Below are positions 38,452 through 63,359 of a DNA stretch of 64,000 nucleotides, in pieces. The translations under genes were made by a program, and so were the position numbers. Source of the stretch: Salisaeta longa DSM 21114 (GTDB lineage: Bacteria; Bacteroidota; Rhodothermia; Rhodothermales; Salinibacteraceae); the NCBI RefSeq assembly GCF_000419585.1, contig NZ_ATTH01000002.1, positions 1 to 64,000 of the forward strand. Reading direction: 5' to 3'. Position 1 is the stretch's first letter; each line of letters opens with the position of its first letter. The notes under the pieces were generated by a model. That model did no database searches, had not been told where the DNA came from, and saw only the letters and a list, made by a program, of their open reading frames with translations.

Positions 38452-38483
38452 GGTTCCATGGAACCATGGAACCACGGTTCTGC
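38452..38483. repeat. RGWWCYRY octamer array, 4 units
   Basis: Consecutive 8-bp units GGTTCCAT, GGAACCAT, GGAACCAC and GGTTCTGC at 38452-38483. Each is a degenerate palindromic hexamer RGWWCY followed by RY. The array lies in the 87-bp gap between convergent genes and repeats the unit type of the large array before parA. Confidence 0.75.
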
Positions 38484-50231: not shown

Positions 50232-50271
50232 AGAACCATAGAACCATGGAACTGTGGTTCTATGGTTCTAC
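50232..50271. repeat. RGWWCYRY octamer array, 5 units
   Basis: Units AGAACCAT, AGAACCAT, GGAACTGT, GGTTCTAT and GGTTCTAC, in exact 8-bp register. The outer units form perfect 15-bp inverted arms (50232-50246 and 50255-50269) around an 8-bp centre. Same unit type as 38452 and the parA-upstream array. Confidence 0.8.
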
Positions 50272-59923: not shown

Positions 59924-60059
59924 AGGACCGCGGTACGTTGGAACTATGGAACTGTGGTTCTATGATTCTATGGTTCCACAGAATTGTGGTACGTCACTTC
60001 TGCGGTACTGTAGAACTATGGAACCGCAGTTCTATGATTCTACGGTTCTGTCGACAATT
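59924..60059. repeat. RGWWCYRY octamer array, block 1 (about 17 units)
   Basis: Read in steps of 8 from 59924: AGGACCGC, GGTACGTT, GGAACTAT, GGAACTGT, GGTTCTAT, GATTCTAT, GGTTCCAC, AGAATTGT, GGTACGTC, ACTTCTGC, GGTACTGT, AGAACTAT, GGAACCGC, AGTTCTAT, GATTCTAC, GGTTCTGT and CGACAATT. Most fit RGWWCYRY exactly or with one mismatch. The hexamer and the RY spacer are each self-complementary in degenerate form, so the array reads alike on both strands. Confidence 0.85.
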
Positions 60060-60095
60060 ACGACACCAAAAGCCCTTTTATCGCACCTGATACCC

Positions 60096-60231
60096 GGTTC
60101 TGTGGTACCGTAGTACCGTGGAACCATGATTCTACAGTACTATAGTTCTACAGTACCATAGTGCTACAGAACTTTGGTACCACAGAACCATAGTAGCATG
60201 GAACGCTGGAACTACAGAACCACGGTACCAC
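60096..60231. repeat. RGWWCYRY octamer array, block 2 (17 units), ending 21 bp before parA
   Basis: In register from 60096: GGTTCTGT, GGTACCGT, AGTACCGT, GGAACCAT, GATTCTAC, AGTACTAT, AGTTCTAC, AGTACCAT, AGTGCTAC, AGAACTTT, GGTACCAC, AGAACCAT, AGTAGCAT, GGAACGCT, GGAACTAC, AGAACCAC and GGTACCAC. A 36-bp unrelated spacer separates it from block 1 and shifts the register by 4. Its place beside parA makes it a candidate partition site. Confidence 0.88.
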
Positions 60232-61120: not shown

Positions 61121-61537
61121 ATGCCAAAGCCGAAGAAAGACACCGATTCACGGCGTAGTGTGCTTTCAATTCCTGATCTCGACCTTGAAGAAGATGATGG
61201 GGGGTCAGGCGATGCTCAGTCGTCCGAGGAGCCATCGCCGCGAGCATCAAAAGACGAAGCCCCGACCCCTGAATCAGCGCTATTCCCCATTGCAGAAACC
61301 ATCAACCGGCAGAAAATCGGCGTTCACATTGACGAAACGGTTGCTGAGGCTTGGCGGGCTGCATGGGTCAAGCTTCTGTCAGTAGATCCGAAGCTCAACA
61401 AGGGTGTGGTTGTGGAGGCCGCGTTGCGTCTTGCCGTTGAAGAGTTTAGAGAGAAGGGCGAGGAGAGCCGCCTGTACGAGGTGTTAGAGGAGACAGTCGC
61501 AGCAGAACGAAGCGGAGACAAAGACACGAATCCGTAG
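61121..61537 (+). CDS. Putative ribbon-helix-helix partition partner
   Basis: A 138-residue protein. The first ~65 residues are acidic and disordered-looking (LSIPDLDLEEDDGGSGDAQ...). The C-terminal half contains KIGVHIDETVAEAWRAAWVKLL then NKGVVVEAALRLAVEEF (about residues 69-116), a beta-strand plus two helices as in ribbon-helix-helix proteins. Placement just after parA is that of the centromere-binding partner (ParG, Omega or ParB-like analogues). The low-complexity N-terminus may contact ParA, as the ParG tail does. Weak homology, strong context. Confidence 0.6.
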   Translation: MPKPKKDTDSRRSVLSIPDLDLEEDDGGSGDAQSSEEPSPRASKDEAPTPESALFPIAETINRQKIGVHIDETVAEAWRAAWVKLLSVDPKLNKGVVVEAALRLAVEEFREKGEESRLYEVLEETVAAERSGDKDTNP

Positions 61538-61683: not shown

Positions 61684-62104
61684 AAGTGTGACACTTTCGT
61701 ACCCTAAGTGTGAGAGAATCGTACCGTTAGTGTGACACTTTCGTACCCTAAGTGTGAGAGAATCGTACCGTTAGTGTGACACTTTCGTACCGGACATCTT
61801 CCAAGTGTGAGGGAATCGTACCGTTAGTGTGACACTTTCGTACCCTAAGTGTGAGAGAATCGTACCCCACCCCCGTTTAACAGCGATAGACGGGGGGCTA
61901 AGTGTGACACTTTCGTACTTGGTGTGAGAGAATCGTACCGAGACGATGCTAAGTGTGAGGGAATCGTACCCGTAGGCTCCTAAGTGTGAGAGAATCGTAC
62001 CACCCCCGCCTAGCAGCCGCGGATCGTGCCTCAAGGGCGGGTTTAACGGGCTGCGTGAGGCTCAAAAGTGAAGCGGCAGCAGCTAAGTGTGCGAGTTTCG
62101 TACC
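61684..62104 (+). repeat. Iteron array (13 copies, two alternating types)
   Basis: Thirteen 20-bp sites ending TCGTACC or a near match. Starts are 61684, 61706, 61728, 61750, 61772, 61803, 61825, 61847, 61900, 61920, 61951, 61982 and 62085. Type A reads (A/T)AGTGTGACACTTTCGTACC; type B reads AAGTGTGAGAGAATCGTACC (some with GAGGGAAT). The first five alternate A-B-A-B-A with exact 22-bp spacing, and B-A-B follows. These are typical Rep-binding sites of a theta-replicating, Rep_3-controlled replicon. Confidence 0.92.
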
Positions 62105-62182
62105 GAGCATGGCCATTCTGGCGTCTCTGCAGTACACTATCCGCAGGTATTACCCCAAAAACACCCAGATACAGCGGTATTC

Positions 62183-62222
62183 GGTACGAAACCATCACAC
62201 ACGGTACGATTCCCGCACGGTT
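62183..62222 (-). promoter_or_regulatory. Two inverted iteron-like sites before rep
   Basis: GGTACGAAACCATCACACAC (62183-62202) and GGTACGATTCCCGCACGGTT (62203-62222) are the iteron read on the other strand, one of each type, set end to end. In iteron plasmids, sites like these form the operator at which Rep represses its own gene. Confidence 0.65.
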
Positions 62223-62321
62223 GTCCGTGCAGCACGGCCCGGCCGTCGCCCGTCCGTACGATGTAAGGAGGCCCGTTGCTGCCTCTGCTCGATTCTTCAG
62301 AAGGAGCGCCTGCACGGTCGC

Positions 62322-63359
62322 ATGAGTACGCAGAAGGAAATACAGTTTGCCTCGCAGGACGAGCTCGTTGTCAAGTCGAATCGGTTTGTAACGGCGAAAT
62401 ACGACTGGACGCCCACGGAGCACCGCATCATCGCGATGATGATTGCGCAGTTGAAGAAAGACGACGAGTCGTTCGACGTGCAAACGATTCACATCCGCGA
62501 CATTCGGGAGATGACCGAAACGCGCTCGAAGGACTTGTACAGTCGCGGCGAGGAGATTTGCCAGAAGCTGCTGGCGCAGAAAATTGAGATTCGCACGACC
62601 GACACCGAGGGCCTGCGGGAGTATGAGGGCTACAATTTGCTCTCCACGTGCCGCTATTCGGAGGGATCGGGCGCTATCCAGGCAAAGTTTAACGAGGACA
62701 TGCGGCCGTTTTTGCTGGAGCTGCGGCGGCGGTTTACCATCTACCAGCTGCAGTATGTGATGCGCTTGCGAAGTCAGTACTCCATCCGCATCTACGAGAT
62801 GCTAAAGATGCGCGAGGGCCTCGGGTTTTATCGAGTTACCGTGGAGCGGCTGCGCGAGTTGCTGATGATCACGCACAAATACACCGGGTCGTTCTCGCAG
62901 GTCAAAGCGAAGGTGCTGGAGCCTGCGCGTGAGGAGATCAAGGAGAAGTGCGACATCCTGTTCACGTATCACGTGGAGCGCGAAGGCCGCACGCCCGTCG
63001 CGATCAACTTCATGATTCACTCCAATCGGGACGTAGAGCCCGCGGTGAGTCAGGACGAAATCAAGCGGCTGAAGGCCCGCCGCGTCCCCGACGACGACGC
63101 AGCCGGCAACGGCGCGCGGGCGTCGGAGGCGGCGAATGGAAACGAAGGCGACGACGCGCCCCTGAAGCTCGACGGCTATCAGATGTTTTTGACGGAGCGC
63201 ACCCAGGAAGAACTAGAGGCGATGGGCGACAAAGAGCTTCAGGAGCTCCGTGAGGCCGCCGAGAAGCGCGTATCGGACCAGCACCCGGAGGTTGGGTCGT
63301 CGTATCGGGCCAGCGAGGTATACCGCGTCATGAAGCGTCTGTGGGCCGACCGGCAATAG
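62322..63359 (+). CDS. Rep_3-family replication initiator
   Basis: A 345-residue initiator. The first winged-helix region (ELVVKSNRFVTAKYDWTPTEHRIIAMMIAQLKKDD, residues ~12-46) and the second (LRSQYSIRIYEMLKMREGLGFYRVTVERLRELLMI, ~149-183) are the pair that defines RepB/Rep_3 (PF01051) proteins such as RepE and Pi. They bind iterons as monomers and the operator as dimers. The C-terminal ~100 residues are acidic and not part of the conserved fold. The ATG at 62322 starts the recognisable domain. The iterons lie directly upstream. Confidence 0.93.
   Translation: MSTQKEIQFASQDELVVKSNRFVTAKYDWTPTEHRIIAMMIAQLKKDDESFDVQTIHIRDIREMTETRSKDLYSRGEEICQKLLAQKIEIRTTDTEGLREYEGYNLLSTCRYSEGSGAIQAKFNEDMRPFLLELRRRFTIYQLQYVMRLRSQYSIRIYEMLKMREGLGFYRVTVERLRELLMITHKYTGSFSQVKAKVLEPAREEIKEKCDILFTYHVEREGRTPVAINFMIHSNRDVEPAVSQDEIKRLKARRVPDDDAAGNGARASEAANGNEGDDAPLKLDGYQMFLTERTQEELEAMGDKELQELREAAEKRVSDQHPEVGSSYRASEVYRVMKRLWADRQ

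Follow-up and report, generated by a model that had tools for sequence, protein, structure and literature searches.

Few model systems are known in which an RHH protein reads the centromere of a plasmid. The RHH repressor MetJ acts on tandem 8-bp palindromes, the met boxes, which differ from the candidate centromere array described here in being few and in serving metabolic regulation rather than partition. On plasmid pMF1 of Myxococcus fulvus, the operon is repressed by the small ParB of the parCAB system, whose binding sites, imperfect palindromes of 8 bp, lie close to par and also elsewhere along the plasmid (PMC3235114). In the Omega/parS system of pSM19035, one 7-bp repeat accommodates one RHH dimer, there are several parS sites, and ParA is activated only when four or more repeats are contiguous (PMC9499535). 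In the parH/ParG system of TP228, ParG coats degenerate boxes and acts also at the operator (PMC7308502). SCP2 offers a case in which the centromere site lies within the gene of the protein that binds it: its parS, one 18-bp inverted repeat, is part of the ParT coding sequence (PMC12260392).

The window analysed here comprises the first 64,000 nucleotides of contig C2 (150,924 bp) of Salisaeta longa DSM 21114, whose 3.4-Mb genome has two other contigs. The P-loop of the window ParA lies near residue 10, too close to the start of the protein for a DNA-binding domain to precede it. The locus has two marks of a type Ib system, a ParA-type Walker ATPase lacking an N-terminal HTH domain and a putative centromere of short tandem repeats adjoining parA. 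The nearest ParA in the plasmid collection was that of Salinibacter ruber pSR118, with 46% identity. On its other, upstream side the array is flanked by a divergent glpX-like FBPase gene. The Rep_3 gene beside the par locus is plasmid backbone, and the 22-bp and 31-bp repeats, which adjoin the par locus and do not belong to the octamer array, are probably iterons for replication. The coordinates of these features are collected in Table 1.

Table 1. Features of the par region and of the satellite arrays in the window
Feature	Position	Strand	Remarks
Satellite mini-array, 4 contiguous RGWWCY units	38452..38481	.	Intergenic, convergent genes either side
Satellite mini-array, 5 contiguous RGWWCY units	50232..50269	.	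Intergenic
Array block 1, 16 units RGWWCYRY	59924..60051	.	Slot 17 fits 3/8
Gap without units, 44 bp	60052..60095	.	May be promoter region
Array block 2, 17 units RGWWCYRY	60096..60231	.	Last base 21 bp before parA ATG (60253)
parA, Walker-type ATPase, 269 aa	60253..61062	+	AAA_31 E = 2.6e-46
RHH-like candidate centromere-binding protein, 138 aa	61121..61537	+	Directly downstream of parA
22-bp and 31-bp repeats (AGTGTGA..TCGTACC)	61684..62001 (61684-61867, 61922-62001)	.	Between RHH gene and Rep_3
Rep_3 family replication initiator	61986..63359	+	Start codon uncertain; Rep3_N E = 2.7e-35

The array upstream of parA consists of 33 octamers of the form RGWWCYRY over 308 bp. The starts of the last unit of block 1 and the first unit of block 2 are 52 bp apart, which is 6.5 times 8, and the blocks are therefore shifted in register by 4 bp. 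The initial annotation had described about 34 units in two blocks of 17 with a 4-bp shift, ending 21 bp before parA. The two blocks, the shift and the distance to parA were all recovered, whereas slot 17 of block 1 fits the pattern at only three of eight positions, and the count becomes 16 and 17 with a gap between. RGWWCYRY was matched at all eight positions by 21 units, at seven by nine units and at six by three, and elsewhere no stretch of the plasmid reached more than 5 matches in 17 in-phase slots. Among periods of 5 to 16, period 8 gave the strongest signal (z = 13.5), reached by none of 500 dinucleotide shuffles. The matrix pooled from all units correlated with its own reverse complement (r = 0.96), and none of 2000 base-relabelled matrices reached this value; relabelling was used instead of shuffling the column order, which is too weak to decide on palindromy. 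By the same measure palindromy was clear in the window array, and borderline or negative in several relatives.

Distinct sequences make up 30 of the 33 octamers, showing that the window array is not a recent tandem amplification. The WW core was AA in 11 units, TA in 10, TT in 10 and AT in none (n = 31); about three AT cores are expected from independent halves, so that their absence is weak evidence. Each unit with a WW core retains at least one GT/AC half-site. The 2-bp RY spacers were AT (10), AC (9), GT (7) and GC (3). GATC is absent from the window array (AT core 0/31), and AGATCT is present in Salinibacter arrays. A search of the window for the parA promoter gave no clear candidate.

The initial annotation regarded such an array as belonging to no known repeat class. 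This does not hold, since in pMF1 the iterons to which ParB binds are imperfect palindromes of 8 bp (PMC3235114), and the repeats of pSM19035 and TP228 are related. Like pMF1, with its period-8 units of the AGATGTCT type, the window plasmid carries 8-bp imperfect palindromes both at par and dispersed along the plasmid. The pMF1 arrays differ in having another core and in being short, and pMF1 has an extra parC gene upstream of parA, where the window has the divergent glpX-like gene. With pSM19035, which has an RHH protein where the window has a predicted one, the window shares contiguous short repeats upstream of a parA-like gene, and several sites on one plasmid; the pSM19035 repeats, however, are 7-bp non-palindromic WATCACW elements in 7–10 copies, whereas those of the window are palindromic RGWWCY with period 8. 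TP228 has an RHH protein, with an unstructured N-terminal tail, and degenerate boxes with spacers, and has a separate operator role. Its boxes are tetramers with AT-rich spacers, in contrast to the hexamer palindromes and 2-bp RY spacers of the window.

The predicted product of the gene at 61121 has an N-terminal MPK motif, a short linker and a beta-helix-helix domain at residues ~65–112, a pattern that aligned across 10 loci. No family was found for it in Pfam or NCBIfam. The family profile matched PDB 5YTP (E = 1.8e-4), a single distant match. AF2 runs on the protein alone and together with two relatives gave low-confidence models, the model of the product itself having helices at 72–88 and 94–112, and a fold search with this model returned no useful match. 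We therefore call the protein RHH-like, on the basis of the sequence pattern and the one distant profile match. Relatives of the protein were found in Salinibacter altiplanensis (G193), in other genomes of the same family, in one genome of the same order and on S. ruber pSR116; a phylum-wide sample of 394 genomes contained no member beyond the window's own family.

The window and ten plasmid-type parA-RHH loci from Rhodothermia, 11 loci in all, were compared. The initial annotation had proposed scanning related genomes for period 8 beside parA genes, and the scan found arrays at all ten related loci. Periodicity alone detected a period-8 array upstream of parA in 10 of the 11 loci (nine of ten relatives and the window), with the signal reached by 0–2 of 500 shuffles. 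At the remaining locus (G165) the upstream region was negative in the periodicity test (57 of 500 shuffles) and matched the motif of its own intragenic array at z = 8.6.

Intragenic arrays of this kind were found in the RHH genes of the relatives. The best period between 5 and 16 in the RHH gene was 8 in all ten, a result reached by 0 of 500 codon-order shuffles, and shuffles of synonymous codons that kept the protein sequence reached the signal in 0–52 of 3000 cases; three of the ten loci are closely related, and a p-value combined over loci from the synonymous-codon test overstates their independence. As 8 is not a multiple of 3, repeats in the protein are not an easy cause of this period. 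The arrays occupy the part of the gene that codes for a linker, probably disordered, which joins the RHH domain to a conserved motif at the N-terminus (MPKK...LLPxVxLDE in the Salinibacter group). No intragenic array was found in the RHH gene of the window, the one locus of the 11 that lacks it, and in an alignment of the RHH proteins the window protein is shorter exactly at the position of the array. This gap suggests that the intragenic array was lost in the window lineage, or gained in the others. The parB gene of pMF1 differs from the RHH genes of the relatives in having no array. When the pMF1 sequence (EU137666) was re-read, period-8 arrays were found, some of them inside genes. Two of these, built on the pMF1 motif, are located within the genes pMF1.16 and pMF1.19c, not parB (L117, 14091-14154 and 15854-15901). 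SCP2 ParT is unlike the Rhodothermia readers in being a clamp-like ParB relative rather than an RHH protein, with a single inverted repeat and no octamer array.

Several other kinds of partition locus were also covered. No period-8 signal was present in the parB gene of HTH-type ParB loci (Sphingopyxis, Azospirillum, Phaeobacter, Cohnella and Sebaldella), and no octamer arrays were present at the chromosomal parA-RHH relatives of Salinibacter, chromosomal parA genes with an RHH-like domain nearby (L098–L105). Plasmids of Rhodococcus and Gordonia (L113 and L116) showed a period-9 signal upstream of parA, with z values of 8.5 and 5.4, which perhaps represents another spacing class of centromere array.

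Outside parA loci, matches to the RGWWCYRY pattern were mostly homogeneous repeats with mostly identical units, unlike the arrays at parA. Homogeneous tandem repeats of the types (AGTTCTAC)n, (GGTACTAC)n and (GGATCTAT)n occur in intergenic DNA with no parA close by (L056, 6855-6956; L058, 116-161; L059, 7076-7177; L065, 6999-7036). Such 8-bp repeats in other Rhodothermia genomes lend some credit to the notion that the window array is a selfish or neutral microsatellite that came to lie near parA by chance. We consider this highly improbable, as the window units differ among themselves while keeping the degenerate pattern and its palindromy, 11 loci have an array at the corresponding position, and a motif specific to the plasmid is common to the upstream and intragenic arrays. 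Arrays with no link to partition genes had been named in the initial annotation as evidence that would count against a centromere; only homogeneous, microsatellite-like repeats of other genomes were of this kind, and no degenerate array was.

To compare the two arrays of each plasmid, a matrix derived from the intragenic array was used to score upstream regions. It scored the upstream region of the same plasmid at z 5.9–9.2, with only 3.5 in G203, and was near noise on the upstream regions of most other motif groups. Mean motif similarity was 0.79 between upstream and intragenic arrays of the same plasmid and 0.47 between plasmids. In seven of ten loci the intragenic array most similar to the upstream array was that of the same plasmid, and in two more it came second or third among near-identical motifs; G203 failed in this comparison, probably because the automatically chosen upstream stretch was misplaced. 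For pSR118 and for loci in three other genomes (G194C6, G199C1 and G193C2), the upstream and intragenic arrays were the two best sites in the replicon DNA scanned (22–165 kb).

The motifs fall into a GWWC group (window, pSR118, G193, G194 and G188), a GTAC-like group (pSR116), a CGC-like group (G183 C178) and a TCG/GAC-like group (G183 C145, G199 and G165). The two plasmid loci of genome G183 differ from each other in both motif and RHH protein. Motif similarity was correlated with identity of the RHH domain (Mantel r = 0.40, 113/5000) and with identity of eight ribbon residues (r = 0.50, 64/5000). The motif thus diverges together with the RHH protein, which points to a specificity of its own for each plasmid.

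These data also bear on the idea that the array forms part of the origin of replication, with either the initiator Rep_3 or a host factor binding to it. A Rep_3 gene and repeats do lie within 2–4 kb of the array; Rep_3, however, probably has iterons of its own, the 22-bp repeats that separate the RHH gene from rep, with similar 22-bp repeats at the corresponding place in relatives, and the motif of the array tracks the RHH protein. Moreover, rep is in the opposite orientation on pSR116, yet the period-8 arrays are retained at parA-RHH. An origin function therefore has very little to commend it.

The initial annotation located the main array and missed the intragenic arrays of the relatives as well as two satellites on the window plasmid. 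The satellite at 50232 scored 51, against a maximum of 11.5 in shuffled sequence. In the whole 3.4-Mb genome all matches to a two-unit pattern were on C2, except for one pair on C1, which is a chance pair. With four and five units the satellites may, by analogy with the pSM19035 rule, be long enough for ParA activation. They are also relevant to the possibility that the array is a transcriptional operator only, serving the parA operon and the divergent glpX-like gene, and no centromere. The array does lie directly upstream of parA, in the Salinibacter relatives it begins at a conserved promoter-like TTGCCT-17-TATACT, as read from the sequences, and autorepression has been reported in type Ib systems (PMC3235114). 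Against this, 33 units over 308 bp far exceed the need of an operator, the satellites lie away from the operon, and in the relatives a further array is retained within the RHH gene. For the satellite at 38452, flanked on both sides by the ends of genes, an operator role is difficult to envisage. A purely regulatory role is accordingly improbable, if a little less so than the two alternatives above.

We consider it very probable that the array serves as parS, the centromere, and probably also as the operator, of a type Ib ParA-RHH system on the 151-kb plasmid, read by the predicted RHH product of 61121. A centromere read by this product had been put forward in the initial annotation, and comparison of sequences now supports it well, through the synteny of 11 loci, the motif present in two places on each related plasmid, its change together with the RHH protein, and the confinement of the pattern to a plasmid with satellites. 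By analogy with the model systems, each dimer of the 61121 product would bind one 8-bp near-palindrome (YRGW|WCYR), with a two-stranded ribbon in the major groove, and adjacent dimers would pack cooperatively every 8 bp so as to coat both blocks. The coated array would stimulate nucleoid-bound ParA and be carried by it, and would repress the parA operon, while the two satellites would act as additional loading sites.

On balance we lean slightly towards a further proposal, that plasmids of this Rhodothermia family have a self-carried centromere. Selection would maintain a functional centromere array within the coding sequence for the linker of the RHH protein that reads it, so that gene and cognate site move and change specificity together. 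The window plasmid would be a derived form in which the intragenic copy was lost and the long upstream array and the satellites compensate. The repeat class itself was already known; what appears new is that an array is embedded in frame in the gene of the protein that reads it, that the motif turns over while the period stays constant, and that in the window a long array takes the place of the intragenic one. The part of the literature that our search covered contained no account of an RHH-type array maintained in frame within its reader gene, of turnover in such an array with the period unchanged, or of this Rhodothermia family. With a constant 8-bp period and varying cores beside their reader proteins, the 11 loci form a natural set for the RHH recognition code and for plasmid incompatibility, and an array that also encodes part of the protein reading it offers a clean test of how a centromere and its binding protein stay matched.
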